From contig CALDUT010000001.1 of the NCBI GenBank assembly GCA_937924775.1, positions 248,001 to 312,000 of the forward strand: 64,000 nt of DNA, in the 5' to 3' direction. Shown here in pieces: positions 38,734-56,834 of this stretch (the stretch's first letter is position 1; every line of letters begins with the position of its first letter). The stretch is from an uncultured Gemmata sp. (GTDB lineage: Bacteria; Planctomycetota; Planctomycetia; Gemmatales; Gemmataceae). The notes under the pieces are model-generated. The model saw nothing but the letters and a program-made list of their open reading frames with translations, did no database searches and was not told the origin of the DNA. The position numbers and the translations under genes were made by a program.

Positions 38734-40638
38734 CTATTCCAATTTGGCTTTGAGGGTCAGTTTCTTGCCCGCGCGGTCGACAACGATATCGATGGTTTCG
38801 CCGGGCCGCTTTGTGCCCATCGCTTCCATATATGCTGTGATGTTCGGCACCGGTTTGCCCCCGATTTCGACGATCACATCGCCATCCTTGAGGCCGGTTT
38901 TCTCGGCAATACTGCCCGGGGCGACACCTTCCAGCCGTACACCGGCTCCTTCGTAAGCGTAATCAGGAAGAATTCCCAGCCGCGGACCGGTCCGTTTGGG
39001 TTCCGGCTGCGGCGTGGTGGGATCAAGGGGGGCGCTTTCGCGCACCGCCGTGAACTTCGGCGGTGTTTCCCGGGTCAAGAGTTCGTGGACAATCTTCTCG
39101 GCCAAATCCACCACTTTTTTCATCCCGGGAATGTCGATTTTTTCGGGCACGTCGGTGGGCCGGTGATACTCCGGATGCAAACCGGTAAAGAAGAACAGCA
39201 CCGGGATTTTCTTCATATAGAAGGCGTGGTTGTCGCTGTTGCTGGCACTGGCCCGTACTTTGTAGAGCCGGAAGTCGGCCCCGCGGCTGACGTCGTTGAC
39301 CAGCCCATCGAAGTAATCCCCGGTGCCTGTCCCGTAGATCACCAAGCGATCTTTCTTGCCAAATAGCCCCAACCAATCGATCGGTACCGGTTTGGTGCGG
39401 CCGATCATGTCCATGTTGACCATGGCCACGGTCTTTTCCAAGGGAAAAAGCGGCTCTTTGCAGTAGTGCAACGACCCCAACAGGCCAATCTCTTCGCCCG
39501 AGAAGGCGATGAAGACCAGCCGTCGGCCTTCGCGGTTGGGAATGGCTCCGAAGCGACGGGCCATTTCGATAAGGCCGGTGGTGCCGCTGGCGTTGTCGTC
39601 GGCCCCGAAGTGAATCTTGCCGCGGGCACTGGGGCCACCAGCACTGCCGAAGTGGCCGTAACCCACATGGTCGTAGTGGGCTCCGATGATCACGGTTTCA
39701 TCTTTCAGCGGACCGGCTCCTTCGAGAACCCCCACAACATTTTTGGCGTCCACTTGCTTGCGCTCGAGAGAGACTGTGGTTGCGGCCGTCCACCCTGGGA
39801 GCGGGAAGACAACGGGGCGAAGCTTGTCGTTGATGGCGTCTTCAATCTCTTTGAGCGACTTCTGACCAGCGGCGGCGAGAATCTCGTCGATAATCGACCG
39901 TTTGAGGAACAGTACCGGGATTTGTGCCGGCGTGGTACCGCTGGCGTGCAGTTCATACGCGGGCAGCGGGTCGGTGCGGCCGGCCGCGGTGGAATCGTTG
40001 ACGATAATCACCCCGGCGGCTTTTTTCTTCGCTGCCAGTTCGATTTTGGTGGCGAATGCGGCATGGGGGCTGTCGTCGTCCCGGGCCACGGTGGTATCGA
40101 ACCGCCGCTCACCCTTCTCCCCATAGCGGGGCGTACGACGAAGAATGACTACGAACTTGCCGTCCACAGCCACACCCGCGTAATCATCGTACTCCAGAGT
40201 TGGCGCGCTGATGCCATAGCCGGCGAAGACCAGTTCCGCTTGCACCTGGCCGGCCCCAGTGTAGCCCATGGGCGTATAATCGGTGCGGAGTTTGGGTTCG
40301 AGTTTCTGGCCCTTGGGGCCCGTCAAGGTGAGGCTATTCTCCTTTCCCAACTTGGATGAGAGGGTGATTTTGAACGGTTGAAAGAATGTCCCATCCTTGC
40401 TCGCAGGTTGCAGCCCCGCGGCCTGGAAGGCCGCGGCAATGTGGTCGGCGGCTTTATCGATCCCGGGCGTATCGACCCCGCGGCCTTCACATTCGGGGCT
40501 GGCCAGGAAGAATAAATCCTTCTGCATCCGTTCCAAGATCGGATCGTCCAAGGGTTTCTGAGCCATCACACGGCCGGCGAAAGCCCAAACGGCGATGAGA
40601 ACGAAACTGCTGGCAACCCGTCGCGTGAGTGGGGACAT
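38734..40638 (-). CDS. Exported M28-family zinc metallopeptidase with PA and PDZ domains
   Basis: A 634-residue protein. A signal peptide (SFVLIAVWAFAGRVMAQ) is followed by a protease-associated-type insert (about 120-270, VFAGYGISAPTLEYDDYAG). The M28 catalytic domain has GAHYDHVGYG, FGADDNASGTTGLIEMARR, FSGEEIGLLGS, NMDMIGR and LHPEYHRPTD, covering the two-zinc site. The C-terminal PDZ (about 545-634, GAGVRLEGVAPGSIAEKTGL, KDGDVIVEIGGKPV) may position substrate. It is an aminopeptidase-like enzyme acting outside the cytoplasm. I chose the ATG at 40638, ahead of the signal peptide; the frame extends to 40734 without similarity. Confidence 0.92.
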   Translation of the reverse strand: MSPLTRRVASSFVLIAVWAFAGRVMAQKPLDDPILERMQKDLFFLASPECEGRGVDTPGIDKAADHIAAAFQAAGLQPASKDGTFFQPFKITLSSKLGKENSLTLTGPKGQKLEPKLRTDYTPMGYTGAGQVQAELVFAGYGISAPTLEYDDYAGVAVDGKFVVILRRTPRYGEKGERRFDTTVARDDDSPHAAFATKIELAAKKKAAGVIIVNDSTAAGRTDPLPAYELHASGTTPAQIPVLFLKRSIIDEILAAAGQKSLKEIEDAINDKLRPVVFPLPGWTAATTVSLERKQVDAKNVVGVLEGAGPLKDETVIIGAHYDHVGYGHFGSAGGPSARGKIHFGADDNASGTTGLIEMARRFGAIPNREGRRLVFIAFSGEEIGLLGSLHYCKEPLFPLEKTVAMVNMDMIGRTKPVPIDWLGLFGKKDRLVIYGTGTGDYFDGLVNDVSRGADFRLYKVRASASNSDNHAFYMKKIPVLFFFTGLHPEYHRPTDVPEKIDIPGMKKVVDLAEKIVHELLTRETPPKFTAVRESAPLDPTTPQPEPKRTGPRLGILPDYAYEGAGVRLEGVAPGSIAEKTGLKDGDVIVEIGGKPVPNITAYMEAMGTKRPGETIDIVVDRAGKKLTLKAKLE

Positions 40639-41094
40639 AGCGTGTCCTTGTGGAAGGCCAGATCTTGGAAAGATGAAGGTATTATGGCGTCTCCACGCCC
40701 GGCGGGGCAAGAGCCGCCGCGGAGGGACGCACAACTCCCGGCGATTCCTGAAAATCGAGGGCGTTCTCGAGCGAAAGAATGAACGGTGGGAAAAAAACGA
40801 AAAAAAATTGCAAAACAGGTGAACCGGAGCGTCCCGAAAGTGTCTAATTCAGTAGCCACGGCTGAGAGAGCCTCAGTGTGGCTATTGGGCTTGCAGGAGA
40901 ATACGAGAAAAAAACGCCATAAGCCTCTTTTCTGAGAGACGCAACCCAGTTGCATCCTAAGAATTTGGCGGTTTTTCTCGAAACGAATCCGATTGGGGTT
41001 TGTATTATTCCTCGAACCGGATGAGATGACAAACTCTTCCCTTTTGGGCGGTCGCTTCTAGAGGACCGCCTCGAAAGTCTGCTGGAGGTGTGTG
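40639..41094. other. AT-rich intergenic region with a structured segment
   Basis: 456 bp between the M28 peptidase (leftward) and an orphan ORF (rightward). The first 200 bp include poly-A tracts near 40785-40815. The remainder is the structured leader described separately. No protein gene is supported on either strand. Confidence 0.5.
40853..41070 (+). ncRNA. Candidate structured RNA / 5' leader
   Basis: Several stems lie in a row upstream of the ORF at 41095. Stem 1: TAGCCAC 40853-40859 with GTGGCTA 40878-40884, enclosing CTGAG 40862-40866 with CTCAG 40872-40876. Stem 2 is long range: CGAGAAAAA 40904-40912 and CGCCA 40915-40919 pair with TGGCG 40966-40970 and TTTTTCTCG 40972-40980, 14 base pairs with a small internal loop. 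It encloses GCAAC/GTTGC at 40941-40953. Stem 3: GGCGGTC 41047-41053 with GACCGCC 41064-41070, 13 bp before the ribosome-binding site. I do not recognise a known riboswitch class. Confidence 0.4.
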
Positions 41095-41553: not shown

Positions 41554-42157
41554 GGGGACTATCGGCTCAACCGCAACACACCATCGCCAGAACAACCCCG
41601 GTTCTTCCCACCGGCTGTGTTCATGAACGATGCTGTGGCGCGTTGGCATCGATAGCTGTCACTCGGTAATCAAAAGTTCATCAATCCCTGGGTTTGGGAT
41701 GGCGTCTCCGGGCCGTGTCGGTTCGCACGGTGCGTCGGGAACCTCGAAGCAGACGGAAGGCAACCGTTTCTTCCAGTCGCTTCCGGATCCTCACCGGCGC
41801 ATGTGACGAACCTCCGCTGAGCCGGAGGAGCCACGACACAGGGGAAATGCCACCGCGGCATTTCCGGTGTTCGCTCCCGCCGGTCCTTCGCCGCGAAACC
41901 TCCCCCACGGAGGGCGGTGAATCCGGCTGGTTGAGCGAACACTGGCCGCCGCCCGGTGTGAGAAACGCCTGGTTCTCTTTTCCGATTCGAGGTGAACCGC
42001 GTTCTCCCCGGTCAGACGCTGGCACAAACTCTTGGAAGGCAAGGTTCCTGAGGAAAAGTTCCACCGAACAACCGCAGCGGCTCGCCCCTGCCCCGTTCGC
42101 TTTTCCCAGTGCGACTTTGACACTTCCCCTCACCCGGATCGGGACAGGAACCTCTTC
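41554..42157. other. Intergenic region upstream of the sigma-factor gene
   Basis: 604 bp with no supported gene. It contains a 10-bp palindrome GTTCATGAAC (41619-41628) and a 9-bp stem GGAAATGCC/GGCATTTCC (41843-41851/41857-41865). A long plus-strand frame (41694-42161) is Arg/Ser/Pro-rich without similarity and I do not believe it codes. Confidence 0.4.
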
Positions 42158-42754
42158 ATGAACCTGACGGATTTGACGATTCTGGTACAACGCGCCCAAA
42201 CGGGGGACCGGGAAGCCTACGGCGTTTTGGTTCATCGGTTCTACGACATCGTTTACGCCACGGCCCTGGGCCGACTGCGGGACCCCGGCGAAGCCCAAGA
42301 ACTGACACAGGATGTCTTCGTTCACGCGATGCAGAAACTGCCGCAACTGCTGGATGCTCGTTGCCTCGGCGGCTGGTTACGTCAGATCACCGCGCGGATG
42401 GCGATCAACCGTCTGACGCGGCGTGCCCGATGGGTCGGGACCGATCCGGAATTTCTGGATGTGGTTGAAGCCAAAGGGCAAACCGCTGATGAAACCTACA
42501 ACATCCAGGAAGCCATCGAACAGCTGAAACACGGCTTGGCCCGGTTGAAGCTGCTCGATCGGCAGACGCTCGAAGCCTACTATCTGCGGGGCCGCAGCCT
42601 CAAGCAGATGGCAAAGGAGTTCGCGGTTCCCACGGGGACCATCAAGCGGCGGTTGCACACCGCCCGCTTGCGGCTGAAGAAAAAGCTGGAAGAGATGGAC
42701 CCGCTACTGGCGGAGCAATTCGCCGGCAACGCACTGGAGGCAGTCGCCGTGTGA
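42158..42754 (+). CDS. ECF-type RNA polymerase sigma factor
   Basis: A 198-residue sigma-70 family protein. Region 2 is about 8-85 (YGVLVHRFYDIVYATALGRL, EAQELTQDVFVHAM, LGGWLRQITARMAINRLTR). Region 4 is about 128-185 (LKLLDRQTLEAYYLRGRS, MAKEFAVPTGTIKRRLHTAR). There is no region 3. ECF factors redirect RNA polymerase in response to stress or surface signals and usually pair with an anti-sigma factor, which is missing here: the next gene is on the other strand. AGGA lies 10 bp upstream of the ATG at 42158; the longer frame is unsupported. Confidence 0.92.
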   Translation: MNLTDLTILVQRAQTGDREAYGVLVHRFYDIVYATALGRLRDPGEAQELTQDVFVHAMQKLPQLLDARCLGGWLRQITARMAINRLTRRARWVGTDPEFLDVVEAKGQTADETYNIQEAIEQLKHGLARLKLLDRQTLEAYYLRGRSLKQMAKEFAVPTGTIKRRLHTARLRLKKKLEEMDPLLAEQFAGNALEAVAV

Positions 42755-42779: not shown

Positions 42780-43106
42780 TCAGGTGCCGGGAGTCATTCC
42801 CGGCATTTTTTGATTGGTCTGAATCGCTGGGCTGTGGGGCATCGTTACGAGCGGGTCGTCGGTGGGCTGGTGCAACGGACCTTCCGCCGCGGGATCGTCG
42901 GCGGGATGGGCAATCGGCGTCATCGTGATCGCATCGGCAGGGCAAATCTCTTCACACAGCGAACAACTGATGCATTCTTGCGGCCGGGGCAACCACGGCT
43001 GCAAGCCCGCTGTCGCCAAGCAATCGGCGGGGCAGACCGCGACGCAATCCCCGCAGCCAGTGCAGCGGCGACTATCCAACTGCGGTAGGAACCCGAAGCG
43101 ATTCAC
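42780..43106 (-). CDS. 2[4Fe-4S] ferredoxin-type protein
   Basis: A 108-residue protein with two CxxCxxCxxxCP motifs, CTGCGDCVAVCP (about 15-26) and CISCSLCEEICP (about 46-57), each binding a [4Fe-4S] cluster. The last ~45 residues are Pro/Asp-rich and unstructured. It is a soluble electron carrier or a small subunit of a redox complex; no partner oxidoreductase is adjacent. The start is GTG at 43106. It is convergent with the sigma-factor gene, leaving only 25 bp between stops. Confidence 0.88.
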   Translation of the reverse strand: MNRFGFLPQLDSRRCTGCGDCVAVCPADCLATAGLQPWLPRPQECISCSLCEEICPADAITMTPIAHPADDPAAEGPLHQPTDDPLVTMPHSPAIQTNQKMPGMTPGT

Positions 43107-43253: not shown

Positions 43254-43754
43254 TCATTCGTACACCTCCTCGTCGGCCAGATCAATGACTTCGTCCGGCT
43301 CGGGGGGAGATTTCGTCGCGGTGGTTCGGCCTGCCGGGATGGCCTCTTCGCCCAGGGTGCGGCGAATCGTGGCGGTCATCAACCCGCTGACGACATCTTC
43401 CAACACCGGGCGGGTGAGCGGGGGAAAGAGAACAAAGCGAGCCCCCAGTTCAAAGAGCGTGGCCGTCCACGCCACCCGATCCGCGTCGTTCAATTTCGTT
43501 TCGCTGACCACGACGATTGCCACATCTGGAACGTTGCGCCGTACTTCCGCCAGGAATTGAAACGGCAAAAGCTGCTCCTCGCTCAATTCCACTTGCACTA
43601 GAAGAACACACGGCTGCCGATCGTTCACCAGCGATCGAGCCGTCGCCACACTCCGGGCGCGCCGGATCAACCAGCCGCCTTCAGCGGCCAGATCACCGAG
43701 GTTGCGGGCGATCCAGCCATCGGGTTCAAGAACCACCACCTGCGGTGTTCGCAT
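43254..43754 (-). CDS. Degenerate receiver-domain protein
   Basis: A 166-residue protein with a CheY-like fold pattern: VVVLEPDGWIARNL at the acidic-pocket position, VLLVQVELSEEQLL where the phosphoacceptor Asp should be (Gln54 instead), VVVSET for the conserved Ser/Thr, and FPPLTRP where a KP would be expected. The phosphoacceptor and the Lys are both absent, so normal phosphotransfer is unlikely. The C-terminal tail (about 135-166) is acidic (EPDEVIDLADEEVYE). It starts 5 bp after the NtrC-like gene and is surely in the same operon, possibly acting as a phosphorylation-independent partner. Confidence 0.75.
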   Translation of the reverse strand: MRTPQVVVLEPDGWIARNLGDLAAEGGWLIRRARSVATARSLVNDRQPCVLLVQVELSEEQLLPFQFLAEVRRNVPDVAIVVVSETKLNDADRVAWTATLFELGARFVLFPPLTRPVLEDVVSGLMTATIRRTLGEEAIPAGRTTATKSPPEPDEVIDLADEEVYE

Positions 43755-43759
43755 GGTTC

Positions 43760-45145
43760 TCAGCCTTCGTGAGTCTTACGCGATTCTTCAGTTTTCGGTG
43801 TTTCCTCCGTTTTTCGCGATTTGAGCGATGGCTGGCCGGAAATCCCCAACGCCTCCAATCGCCGGTTGAGGCGGCTGCGAAAGACACCGAGCAATTCCGC
43901 GGCCTCGGTTTGGTTCCCCCGGGTTTTCTGAAGGGCGAATTCGATAATCCGCCGTTCCACCGTTTGCAACACGCGATCGAGTTGGAAGGATTTATTCGGT
44001 GGAAGGCGGGGCGATTCAGCCCGAAGGCGAAGGGCCAACGGCAGATGCTCACGGAGGATCGGACCGGCCGGAGCGACAGTCGCGGCTTCCTGGAGAATGG
44101 TTCGGAATTCCCGCCAATTGCCTGACCACGGGTGCATCCGCAACACGGCCAGTGCCGCGGCGTCGAGGGGGCGATGCGGCAGCCATCGGGCGGCACTCCG
44201 GGGCAAATCGTCGAGGCGTTCCCGCAGGGGCGGAAGGCGGATTTCCAACGCACAGTAGTGCGACTGATACAGCGGTACCAGTTTTCCGGTAGCAACGGCT
44301 TCGGTAGCCGCAGAATACGACCCGCACATCAACCGCGGCTGGGTCCGATCGGCGAATTCCTCGGCCAAACGCTGCTGCAAATCCCGCGGGAGAGCGGAAG
44401 GTTCCTTGAGATAAATCGTTCCAACTCGATCCGAAAGGGCCAGGCCGCCGTGACCAAACAGAAGCCCTTCGATCAAGTACGGCTGCAGCCCGGCACAGTC
44501 GATGGCCACGAACGCTCGTTCTCGCGCAGCGCTGGTGGCATGGATAACGCGGGCCGCGGTTTCTTTGCCGCTACCCGGCTCACCGACCAACCACACCGGT
44601 ACCGTGACCGACGCAGCCAAGCGAACCTGCGCCACCAGACGCTCGGCCGCCAGGGATTCCCCAGTCAAAAGATCAATATTGTAATATTTTGTACACTCTT
44701 CCCGCAACGTCACGACCTTCGGGGGGATTTTCTTGGCCGCGGCCGGCACGGCCTCCCCAACAACGGTGATAAACCCCACAATCCCGAAAAGCCCCTCGGT
44801 CGTCTGCAGGGGAATAAATGCAATATCCCACCACGGTGGGCCATTGCGGTGTGGAGCGGCCGGACGCCGGGCGGAGTCGACCTGCCCGGCTAACGCCGCC
44901 GGGGTGGGGGCGAGGGCCGCTTGCAGCGGTGTGCTGCTTTTCCGAAGAGAGCACACCATGCCCAAGGCCTCGTCCCGTGTCAGGCCGGTGAGCTTTTCCC
45001 ACGCGCTATTGGCGTAGCGAAGCCGCCGATTTTTTCCCAGAACGAACAGCGGGGTGGTCGTATGTTCAAAAAAGGATCGCCACGCGAAACTGCTTGTCCC
45101 GCGCGGGCGGCCCCGGTTCGGCGGTGGTTGTGATGGCGCAGGCAT
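43760..45145 (-). CDS. PAS-AAA+-Fis protein, degenerate NtrC-like activator
   Basis: A 461-residue protein. PAS domain about 24-130 (FFEHTTTPLFVLGKNRRLRY). AAA+ region about 155-370: Walker A GEPGSGKE at 188-195, RLPPLRERLDDLP at 303-315 and PWSGNWREF at 339-347 are standard for sigma-54 activators. The L1 loop is not: GLLFGHGGLALSD (227-239) lacks GAFTGA. Walker B reads GTIYLKEP (242-249), with Lys where GTLFLDE has Asp. The Fis-type HTH is about 396-434 (LQKTRGNQTEAAELLGV). It may bind DNA but should not hydrolyse ATP or remodel sigma-54 normally. It precedes the degenerate receiver gene. Confidence 0.85.
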   Translation of the reverse strand: MPAPSQPPPNRGRPRGTSSFAWRSFFEHTTTPLFVLGKNRRLRYANSAWEKLTGLTRDEALGMVCSLRKSSTPLQAALAPTPAALAGQVDSARRPAAPHRNGPPWWDIAFIPLQTTEGLFGIVGFITVVGEAVPAAAKKIPPKVVTLREECTKYYNIDLLTGESLAAERLVAQVRLAASVTVPVWLVGEPGSGKETAARVIHATSAARERAFVAIDCAGLQPYLIEGLLFGHGGLALSDRVGTIYLKEPSALPRDLQQRLAEEFADRTQPRLMCGSYSAATEAVATGKLVPLYQSHYCALEIRLPPLRERLDDLPRSAARWLPHRPLDAAALAVLRMHPWSGNWREFRTILQEAATVAPAGPILREHLPLALRLRAESPRLPPNKSFQLDRVLQTVERRIIEFALQKTRGNQTEAAELLGVFRSRLNRRLEALGISGQPSLKSRKTEETPKTEESRKTHEG

Positions 45146-46360: not shown

Positions 46361-46549
46361 TTAGAGGTAGGTAGACAGCAAGTACAGCCCCAAACCGATA
46401 CCGGACAGAAACACGGCGATCCGCAGACCCCAACCGATCGCTTCGTGAACGATTTTGTCCCACCGGTCGTGCCGCGTGGCGGCATAGACGAAGCTGACCA
46501 CCACGAGCAAAACTGGTAAATCCCAGTAAATACTCATCGCCAACAGCAT
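46361..46549 (-). CDS. Small two-helix membrane protein, translationally coupled
   Basis: A 62-residue protein (starts MLLAMSIYWDLPVLLVVVSF) with two hydrophobic helices (about 8-24 and 41-60) around a charged loop, RHDRWDKIVHE. The ATG overlaps the stop of the upstream gene by one base (TGATG on the minus strand), so the two are coupled and probably form a membrane complex. No family is recognised. Confidence 0.7.
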   Translation of the reverse strand: MLLAMSIYWDLPVLLVVVSFVYAATRHDRWDKIVHEAIGWGLRIAVFLSGIGLGLYLLSTYL

Positions 46550-47244
46550 CAGGAACCTCCCGGAGCGGGGGATGAAGGCGGTAAAAGCGGTGGTAACGGG
46601 GCGGGCGACCCGGCCATCGGCGGGGTTTCGGGCGAATCCGCTGCACCCAAGGGCAGGAGGTTCTCGCCGGCTATGGTGTGGCTCGGTTCGGGGGAGGGGT
46701 GTACCGCCGGTGGGTCGCGGAACATCGGTCCGGCCAGGGCATCGTAGATCACCAGCAGGTTCAACACCCCGGCAATGACGGTGTAAACCCAGCCGAGGTC
46801 CCACCGCTTATTGCCGTTGCGTTGCAGTTCGTTCAGTTCCTTCTCCTCGGGCATGCGTTGGAATTTCCCAAAAATCGGCCCAGCATCCTGGGTTTTGTCG
46901 AAAACGGCATATTGGTAAACAGCGGGCCACGCCGCGACACCGATCCAAAACTGCCCCAAAAACTGCCAACGGTACGCGAGGGATTTGGCCGCCCCGCCCA
47001 AATTCTGACCGGCGATGGCCACATCGGGAAGGTCGGTGGCATCGGGCATCCAGACGTTTTTCCACTGCCCCATCCACATGCCGTAGAAAAACAGCAGATA
47101 CAGCCCGGTGAAAAACAGCAGCCCTTTGCCCACGCGGCCCTGATAAACCTGCCCCAAACCGGGAATCAGATAGCTGAGGAGAGCCGCGAGTGGGTCGAGC
47201 TTGACAGGGGGCAGCGGTGGATCGGAACTTGGCGTCGAAGCCAT
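46549..47244 (-). CDS. Planctomycete multi-pass membrane protein (TM2/DUF6677-like)
   Basis: A 231-residue protein. LSYLIPGLGQVYQGRVGKGL and LFFTGLYLLFFYGMWMGQ form a glycine-punctuated helix pair like that of TM2/DUF5683-type proteins; further hydrophobic segments lie at about 85-110 and 148-170. The C-terminal 60 residues are Pro-rich. Function is unknown. It is the first gene of a pair with the 62-residue membrane protein. I considered DUF6677 by pattern only. Confidence 0.7.
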   Translation of the reverse strand: MASTPSSDPPLPPVKLDPLAALLSYLIPGLGQVYQGRVGKGLLFFTGLYLLFFYGMWMGQWKNVWMPDATDLPDVAIAGQNLGGAAKSLAYRWQFLGQFWIGVAAWPAVYQYAVFDKTQDAGPIFGKFQRMPEEKELNELQRNGNKRWDLGWVYTVIAGVLNLLVIYDALAGPMFRDPPAVHPSPEPSHTIAGENLLPLGAADSPETPPMAGSPAPLPPLLPPSSPAPGGS

Positions 47245-55856: not shown

Positions 55857-56834
55857 TCATTTGCCGGCCACGCTATTGGCCTTAGACACCGCCGCAAGCA
55901 AAACGGTGAATTCTTCGGTGATATGGGCCCCCGCTTCAAGGATGACTTTCTTCTCTTCCGTGATGGTTTGGCCATTGAGGACCATTTCGGCTTTCACTTC
56001 ATAGTAGAACTTCTTTCCGCGTTCCAGTGGCGGGGTGTAGAAGGTCCGTTCCGGGCCGGTAGAAGTCGTGAGTTGGCCATCGACGTAGAGTTTGGCATCC
56101 GCGGGAACTTTGAACTTCAGGTTCGCCCCCATCGGCGAGCTATCCGAGCCGGGTTTCTTCATCGGTTCTGGCGGAATCGTCACTTCGGGTGGTTTATTAG
56201 GGTAATACGCGTTGCTGTTGGTTTCCGGCGGATCGGCCAACCGACCGACCACCACCGGGGCTCCCGCCCCCCACACCGGAGCCACAGGTGTGTAATAGCC
56301 CCGCGGACTCCACGCCGGGGCGCCCATCGGCGGCCCTGACTCCGGCGCGTAGATCACCAACGCCCCACCGTGGCAGCTGCCCGCGCACGAATAGCCCAGC
56401 GGATACTGGCCACGGGTGATGTTGGTCCCATGCCAATAGCCAGGCACGACAAATCCAGTTTCCACCCACGACCCATGCCAGCCCGTACAACCTAAGCACG
56501 AGCTGAAGCAGTTGTACCCGGCACAAGAATAACCGGCACAGCCTAAGCAACCCTTGCGGAAATGCTTCCCGAATAAGCCAACGCGGTGACCAACACAGCC
56601 ACAGCCAAAACATGAACCATAGCAGGCACCGTAACACGAACCATAGCAGGAACCGAAACACGAGCCCATGCACGAACCGAAACACGCACTGTAACAACCC
56701 CCACAACCAGCCATTACGACACCGCCATAGCCCATGGCCATCGGCGCGGGCTCGGTCGGGCGTGGCGAGGGCGCTGTCGGCGGCGTCACGTCGGAGCCGA
56801 CCGATAGCGCGGTAAGCATCACGATGCTGTACAT
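55857..56834 (-). CDS. Cys-Gly-repeat protein with TIGR03000 domain
   Basis: A 325-residue planctomycete-specific protein. Residues 44-80 are a repeat of the type CFGSC/CYGSC/CYGAC, followed by more cysteines to about residue 150 (about 25 in total). The C-terminal domain (about 240-312, LKFKVPADAKLYVDGQLTT, RTFYTPPLERGKKFYYEV) is TIGR03000. In Gemmata-type genomes this domain often stands behind low-complexity Cys-rich or Gly-rich stretches. The N-terminus has only a weak signal (MYSIVMLTALSVG). A cross-linked envelope protein is plausible but inferred. Confidence 0.85.
   Translation of the reverse strand: MYSIVMLTALSVGSDVTPPTAPSPRPTEPAPMAMGYGGVVMAGCGGCYSACFGSCMGSCFGSCYGSCYGACYGSCFGCGCVGHRVGLFGKHFRKGCLGCAGYSCAGYNCFSSCLGCTGWHGSWVETGFVVPGYWHGTNITRGQYPLGYSCAGSCHGGALVIYAPESGPPMGAPAWSPRGYYTPVAPVWGAGAPVVVGRLADPPETNSNAYYPNKPPEVTIPPEPMKKPGSDSSPMGANLKFKVPADAKLYVDGQLTTSTGPERTFYTPPLERGKKFYYEVKAEMVLNGQTITEEKKVILEAGAHITEEFTVLLAAVSKANSVAGK

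Follow-up and report, generated by a model that had tools for sequence, protein, structure and literature searches.

Can a protein built like a sigma-54 activator still be a working regulator once the parts that act on sigma-54 are gone, and what role is left for a neighbouring receiver that lacks the residues of phosphorylation? These questions are raised by two genes in a 64,000-nucleotide stretch of DNA from an uncultured Gemmata sp. (family Gemmataceae, class Planctomycetia; GenBank assembly GCA_937924775.1, contig CALDUT010000001.1, positions 248,001 to 312,000), called the window below; coordinates are window positions, and genes and their domains lie on the minus strand unless stated otherwise. 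The first gene (43760..45145) encodes a motorless enhancer-binding protein of 461 aa, made of a PAS domain, a degenerate AAA+ domain and a Fis-type helix-turn-helix (HTH), as judged from domain scan, alignments and predicted fold. The second (43254..43754) encodes a stand-alone pseudo-receiver of 166 aa, in which Gln replaces Asp54 and Pro replaces Lys111 (alignment, predicted model and Foldseek search). The two stand head to tail with a gap of 5 nt (the stop codon of the regulator ends at 43760, and the ATG of the pseudo-receiver starts at 43754). Together they are probably a motorless DNA-binding regulator with PAS input and its non-phosphorylated adaptor; a link to iron-sulfur (Fe-S) functions is considered separately.

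The regulator has the Pfam domains PAS_4, Sigma54_activat, AAA_lid_14 and HTH_8, each exceeding its curated cut-off. The PAS domain occupies residues 22-131 (44753..45082; PAS_4, 25.9 bits vs cut-off 23.1) and the HTH residues 394-432 (43850..43966; HTH_8, 39.9 bits vs cut-off 22). The predicted fold and the domain order from AAA+ to HTH match those of canonical sigma-54 activators, and in the alignment Walker A (GEPGSGKE, residues 188-195, 44561..44584) and sensor II (WSGNWRE, residues 340-346, 44108..44128, including Arg345) are intact. Other elements are gone. The L1/GAFTGA loop is deleted at residues 231-242 (44420..44455), as seen from loop length against canonical rows. Walker B (TIYLKE, residues 243-248, 44402..44419) reads GTIYLKE, compared with, e.g., GTLFLDE in the genome's own paralogs, and has Lys247 (codon AAG) for the Asp. 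In the arginine-finger region (residues 289-297, 44255..44281) both Arg are absent from the alignment, V290 and H296 standing where all 21 canonical rows have R, and the switch Asn is D216 (N in 17/21). The canonical reference set of 21 rows includes six fetched loci (L191-L193, L196-L198) with a canonical loop. The initial annotation, made from the letters of the window, had described an AAA+ protein with Walker A and a Fis HTH, without GAFTGA and with the Asp of Walker B changed to Lys; each of these points holds. The alignment that it proposed with sigma-54 activators of Planctomycetota, here made with canonical rows including the paralogs of the same genome, confirms the losses and adds to them both arginine fingers, the switch Asn and a shortened L2 loop.

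The same losses recur in the orthologs, which occur in 69 of the 95 genomes of the window's family (E at most 1e-30), one in each apart from split fragments. Removal of the split G003 and G025 leaves 67 family loci, with the partial L033, L037 and L112 retained. From the rest of the class 55 extra loci (L144-L198) were fetched, 49 of them motorless by the same signs and six with GAFTGA, which gives an ortholog alignment of 116 sequences (67 + 49). The window's family is designated f1, and f2, f3 and so on are other families of the class. The GAFTGA loop is absent from 67/67 family orthologs and from the 49 class orthologs, both by alignment and when the loop region of all 116 is scanned for the motif, the absence in the 49 being partly a matter of selection, as the six loci with a canonical loop were moved to the controls. 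The L1 region has a median of 10 residues in the orthologs vs 22 in the canonical rows, and the insert before sensor I (L2 loop) a family median of 11 vs 22. The Walker B Asp is retained in 5/116 orthologs and the full DE in 1/116, and Lys or Arg takes its place in 56/116. Arg290 is present in 26 and Arg296 in 22 of the 116. The Walker A signature GxxxxGK is kept in 90/116, the window protein included, its lysine being lost in 26/116 (Arg in 20), and the sensor II Arg is kept in 70/116.

The review PMC7175178 names the L1 and L2 loops as the candidate elements that deliver the power stroke to sigma-54 in canonical activators. With L1, the Walker B Asp and the arginine fingers missing from the window protein, a cycle of sigma-54 remodelling is not plausible, and the regulator almost certainly acts independently of sigma-54. 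A genome devoid of sigma-54 was considered as the cause of the loss and rejected, since a sigma-54 gene is found in 88/95 family genomes, this one included. All 11 paralogs in the genome have GAFTGA or a close variant, and a single-protein search of its contigs returned four remote loci, all with GAFTGA-type loops only. The presence of canonical paralogs and sigma-54 in the same genome makes the loss specific to this lineage of proteins.

This lineage is old. Relatives that match a profile of 44 orthologs over the whole length, from PAS to HTH, occur class-wide, with such matches in at least about 100 genomes outside f1 (counted by eye); most canonical activators match it only from the AAA+ domain on. 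A quick tree was built from 109 rows, namely the 21 canonical sequences and 88 motorless ones (39 of the 67 family orthologs and all 49 from elsewhere in the class); the motorless rows form one side of a branch with a support of 100 in the Shimodaira-Hasegawa-like approximate likelihood ratio test (SH-aLRT). Spread beyond the class was rejected: L208 and L209, the near-full-length matches outside it among those listed in a 199-genome phylum search, carry GAFTDA/GAFTGA loops and a DE Walker B and are thus canonical. Two gene models in the set are unusual: at L080 two upstream same-strand frames (296 and 845 aa) were grouped with the regulator in neighbour clustering, and at L078 the regulator lies inside an open frame of 2196 aa.

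The gene is under purifying selection. For the one pair compared by a simple counting method, the regulator gene of the window and the ortholog closest to it, nonsynonymous divergence (dN) is 0.129 and synonymous divergence (dS) 1.0 overall (dN/dS about 0.13). From Walker A to Walker B the values are 0.065 and 0.71 (dN/dS 0.09), for PAS 0.096 and 0.93, and for the HTH 0.114 and 1.05. By region, then, the constraint on the 'dead' AAA+ core is similar to that on the sensor and on the HTH. The loss of several catalytic residues would suit decaying pseudogenes, but class-wide orthologs and dN/dS values near 0.13, or 0.09 between the Walker motifs, refute that explanation for practical purposes, and they likewise dispose of recent decay or sequencing error. 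The losses go beyond chance because they recur in orthologs under purifying selection.

The HTH is among the best-conserved parts of the orthologs (A416, R423, R428, R429). Position 425 is Arg in 51/67 family and 38/49 class orthologs and Thr in the canonical rows (16/16 with a letter there). A conserved HTH, with Arg where canonical rows have Thr, points to DNA binding as the function that was kept. In the PAS domain N46, G87 and P112 are invariant in 44 aligned rows; matches to solved relatives that could indicate a ligand were weak (best E 0.0014), and no ligand is claimed. A (K/R)GRP or GRPR motif lies N-terminal to the PAS domain in 20/67 family orthologs, mostly in the window's genus (g1) and a sister genus (g37). 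In the window protein it is RGRPR (residues 11-15, 45101..45115), presumably an AT-hook-like segment. The best palindrome signal in the upstream regions, of the type CCGACCC-N3-GGGTCGG, was tried as an autoregulatory operator and rejected: it sits within the first part of the coding sequence and mirrors the conserved codons for GRP.

The partner had been described as lacking the receiver Asp and Lys, and so it does: Q54 stands at the Asp position and P111 at that of the Lys, and the acidic pair reads E10/P11. Across 74 aligned pseudo-receivers both Asp and Lys are found in 0/74, and seven canonical receivers in the same alignment, which are domains inside other proteins, have both. Profile matches in L179 (opposite strand), L196 and L203, judged by hand to be ordinary receivers or unrelated ones that lie away from the regulator, are excluded from this count; matches below 40 bits (e.g. 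L176) are also outside the residue count, yet are counted as neighbours. The fold is predicted as (beta-alpha)5 with a predicted local distance difference test (pLDDT) score of 89.3. Foldseek searches with the model return NtrX-, PhoB- and LuxO-type receivers (E about 1e-6), and profile matches include TadZ (4e-7) and the NtrC1 receiver (7e-7). No Cys reaches a majority in any column of the pseudo-receiver alignment. The expectation that both neighbours had lost catalytic residues while retaining their folds was therefore sound, and the condition is old and conserved.

The partner is found in 68/95 family genomes (E at most 1e-3). It lies directly downstream of the regulator, on the same strand, in 65/116 loci over several families: 52/67 in f1, 2/2 in f2 and 11/17 in the f6-type loci (f6, f8, f9, f13, f14 and f17; n=17), two of the 11 matches being weak (E 3e-5 and 1.4e-4). 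Regulator and pseudo-receiver are likely to act in one pathway.

Genes of Fe-S and electron-transfer functions recur around the pair. The third gene of the row in the window encodes a 2x[4Fe-4S] ferredoxin-like protein of 108 aa (42780..43106; Pfam and locus comparison), and such a ferredoxin lies downstream in 40 of the 66 f1 loci that have 1 kb or more of sequence on that side. Both f2 loci have the order regulator, pseudo-receiver, ferredoxin. In the DNA read at f6-type loci there is no ferredoxin match. Here the regulator is followed on the same strand by Mrp/ApbC, a NUBPL-family protein that carries an FeS_assembly_P domain, in 12/17 and preceded by same-strand NuoN in 8/17, and NuoM, NuoN, regulator, pseudo-receiver and Mrp occur together in 5/17 (L171, L172, L175, L176, L179). 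NuoN gave no match near the regulator gene in G105 (f6), and two f4 loci have a NuoN-type match. FeS_assembly_P was found in five of eight genomes searched, two copies in each, and in 5/5 one copy lies within about 2.5 kb of the regulator; Fer4_7 has 9 to 18 matches per genome in the same eight genomes, which were chosen after the neighbourhoods had been seen and are not an unbiased sample. At such numbers of Fer4_7, chance should seldom place a ferredoxin beside the regulator, by estimate in roughly a few per cent of cases.

Of the 12 f3 loci, 10 have a SufT-type gene upstream of the regulator and nine have SufE there. The suf row of G224 consists of a MarR-like HTH, an ABC ATPase (called SufC by position, Pfam giving only ABC_tran), two SufBD, rhodanese, SufE, Rieske, SufT and HTH/S24 genes. 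In G115 no SufB/SufC-like frame was seen further upstream by eye, unlike in G224, the only one of the two whose frames were domain-scanned. The row rhodanese-SufE-Rieske-SufT-HTH/S24 ends 38 nt (L150) and 6 nt (L154) before the regulator. Its last gene, for a protein with an HTH and an S24-peptidase-like part (L204 12436-13272; L144 1984-2820), lies upstream in 10/12 loci.

Around the pair in the window, a gene whose PQQ_2 match falls below the threshold and the gene of a DUF6677 protein (46549..47244; Pfam and locus comparison), a recurrent upstream gene in the window's family, precede the regulator on the same strand. An extracytoplasmic function (ECF)-type sigma factor gene (42032-42754, plus strand) is convergent with the ferredoxin gene. 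Further away are an M28 peptidase with PA and PDZ domains (38734-40734) and a short tandem repeat (56608-56686; period 24, 3.3 copies).

In the proposed mechanism, a descendant of the sigma-54 activators would have given up both sigma-54 and ATP-driven remodelling. The PAS domain would sense a signal, and the AAA+ domain would serve as an oligomerisation, possibly nucleotide-binding, scaffold and no longer as a motor. The Fis HTH would bind DNA and act at ordinary (sigma-70/ECF) promoters, as a repressor or as a contact activator. The pseudo-receiver would be a non-phosphorylated adaptor that binds either the regulator or the small ferredoxin, its input partner. As a weaker guess, the regulon would most likely comprise Fe-S cluster or electron-transfer functions; an Fe-S/redox theme, suggested by the neighbourhoods, is put forward tentatively, at somewhat less than even chances. 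The initial annotation had envisaged a DNA-binding repressor or a PAS switch without sigma-54. A sigma-54-independent DNA-binding protein with a PAS domain is indeed the best reading, and the data do not distinguish repressor from activator.

Several observations weigh against this mechanism or parts of it. Walker A is conserved, so ATP use could persist, and ortholog L158 combines DE in Walker B with a good Walker A. A palindrome scan of the upstream regions found no conserved operator. No adjacent pseudo-receiver is present in f3 (12 loci), f4 (15) or f5 (3), with about 4 kb read on each side, and in f4 and f5 the same span holds neither a ferredoxin nor an Fe-S-assembly gene, so neither link is universal. 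Where the regulator stands apart from the pseudo-receiver, by about 15 kb in G009 and by megabases in G051, the pseudo-receiver stays beside the ferredoxin (L199 7364-7939; L201 4241-5290); the dead receiver and ferredoxin can thus stay together as a unit of their own. The suf row of G224 is headed by a MarR-like HTH gene. In eight other f3 loci the HTH/S24 gene ends 308 to 2108 nt before the regulator, and in both f3 genomes scanned (G224, G123) the space between is taken up by a DGOK gene on the opposite strand; given the wide gaps and this gene, the suf link in most of f3 is one of proximity, not of a single operon. Finally, Rrf2 (IscR-type) regulators are found in 117/118 class genomes searched. 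Being near-universal, they leave no vacancy for an Fe-S regulator, and the idea that the regulator replaces a missing IscR was rejected on this ground.

How far the AAA+ domain still uses nucleotide separates the motorless reading from its nearest rivals. The regulator could be a nucleotide switch, in which ATP binding with little or no hydrolysis drives oligomerisation on DNA and sigma-70 activation, like NtrC of R. capsulatus, where ATP binding, and not hydrolysis, is essential by the account in PMC10274813. GxxxxGK in 90/116 and the sensor II Arg in 70/116 agree with this, but loss of the Walker A lysine in 26/116, of the Walker B Asp in 111/116 and of the two arginine fingers in most orthologs leaves inter-subunit nucleotide sensing hardly possible in much of the family. 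Such a switch is considered rather unlikely. Productive ATP hydrolysis is very probably absent, and a still-hydrolysing AAA+ with an altered active site at sigma-70 promoters is very unlikely. Its model would be Caulobacter NtrC, which needs Walker A and Walker B residues for growth on ammonium, as outlined in PMC10274813, and one ortholog does retain DE; but Caulobacter NtrC, in the same account, has the Walker B Asp (D235), where Lys or Arg is found here in 56/116, and the window protein is without both arginine fingers. The canonical paralogs and sigma-54 in the genome would also allow a poison subunit, one that joins canonical activators in mixed rings and in this way adjusts sigma-54 promoters. 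This is most improbable for a protein with a distinct conserved HTH and a conserved PAS domain of its own and with the arginine fingers of the subunit interface lost.

The adaptor role of the pseudo-receiver has a rival of its own, namely that it serves the ferredoxin and not the regulator, the row being a loose operon. The arrangement in G009/L199 and G051/L201, with the pseudo-receiver beside the ferredoxin and the regulator elsewhere, speaks for it, whereas at the f6-type loci the pseudo-receiver follows the regulator with no ferredoxin match in the DNA read; on balance the ferredoxin-only role is unlikely. The reading of regulator and pseudo-receiver as one non-phosphorylated system can be extended to a class-wide device for Fe-S/redox control without phosphorylation, ATP hydrolysis or sigma-54, in which ferredoxin and Mrp/ApbC would set the state of the dead receiver and the receiver would act as an adaptor on a regulator bound to suf, nuo or ferredoxin promoters. 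In this full form it is speculative and rather doubtful.

If the motorless reading is true, the well-studied fold of an ATP-driven sigma-54 activator has become a plain DNA-binding regulator across most of a bacterial class, and many lineages retain it together with a dead receiver. The pair would offer a test bed for the roles of AAA+ and receiver folds after their chemistry is lost and for how pseudo-receivers switch, by mechanisms that the abstract of PMC12632262 calls a mystery. Control of Fe-S and respiratory genes by a regulator so far unrecognised is a further possibility. Among the matches listed, judged by title and opening of the abstract, no published description of this motorless family was found, the subscription literature being mostly outside the search. 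The 'new signalling mode' of the initial annotation is too strong a term on sequence grounds, as both GAFTGA-less NtrC-like proteins and pseudo-receivers have been described. What is unusual is a stable class-wide pair with Walker B and arginine fingers lost and with an Fe-S neighbourhood, a feature absent from the initial annotation; each half has published relatives.

The predicted fold and the domain order from AAA+ to HTH are those of NtrC, ZraR, NtrX and FleQ, and unlike them the window protein is without GAFTGA, the Walker B Asp and the arginine fingers. Closer relatives are the GAFTGA-less regulators of the NtrC family. In R. capsulatus NtrC, HupR, Caulobacter NtrC, TyrR, DhaR and VpsR the L1 loop is changed or deleted, and independence of sigma-54 is shown or presumed (PMC3162934, PMC10274813, as far as these accounts describe them); VpsR (printed VspR) is stated to act at sigma-70 promoters without ATP (PMC10274813). 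The window protein resembles them in being NtrC-like with the L1 loop deleted. It differs from them, by their descriptions, in the further loss of the Walker B Asp and of both arginine fingers and in a shortened L2, and in having class-wide orthologs that contain a PAS domain and whose receiver-like partner is a protein of its own.

A pseudo-receiver is defined, in the outline of PMC12632262, as a receiver lacking at least one of five catalytic residues, and an aspartate-less receiver (ALR) lacks the Asp. The window partner is like both in having a predicted receiver fold without the catalytic residues, and unlike the others in standing alone and being encoded next to a motorless NtrC-like regulator. 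From the Cys-based redox pseudo-receivers, as far as PMC12632262 presents them, it differs in belonging to a family without a majority Cys column. A comparable output, the control of Fe-S genes, is possible by neighbourhood only when the regulator is set beside the Rrf2 regulators IscR and RisR (for RisR, the outline in PMC9973013). The scan of the window regulator gave no match to the Rrf2 domain, and its conserved Cys, at 65 and 217 only, are both shared by canonical rows, which gives no sign of a cluster of its own. Unlike IscR and RisR, the regulator is thus a protein without an Rrf2 match or a family-specific set of conserved Cys, built instead on the frame of a sigma-54 activator.

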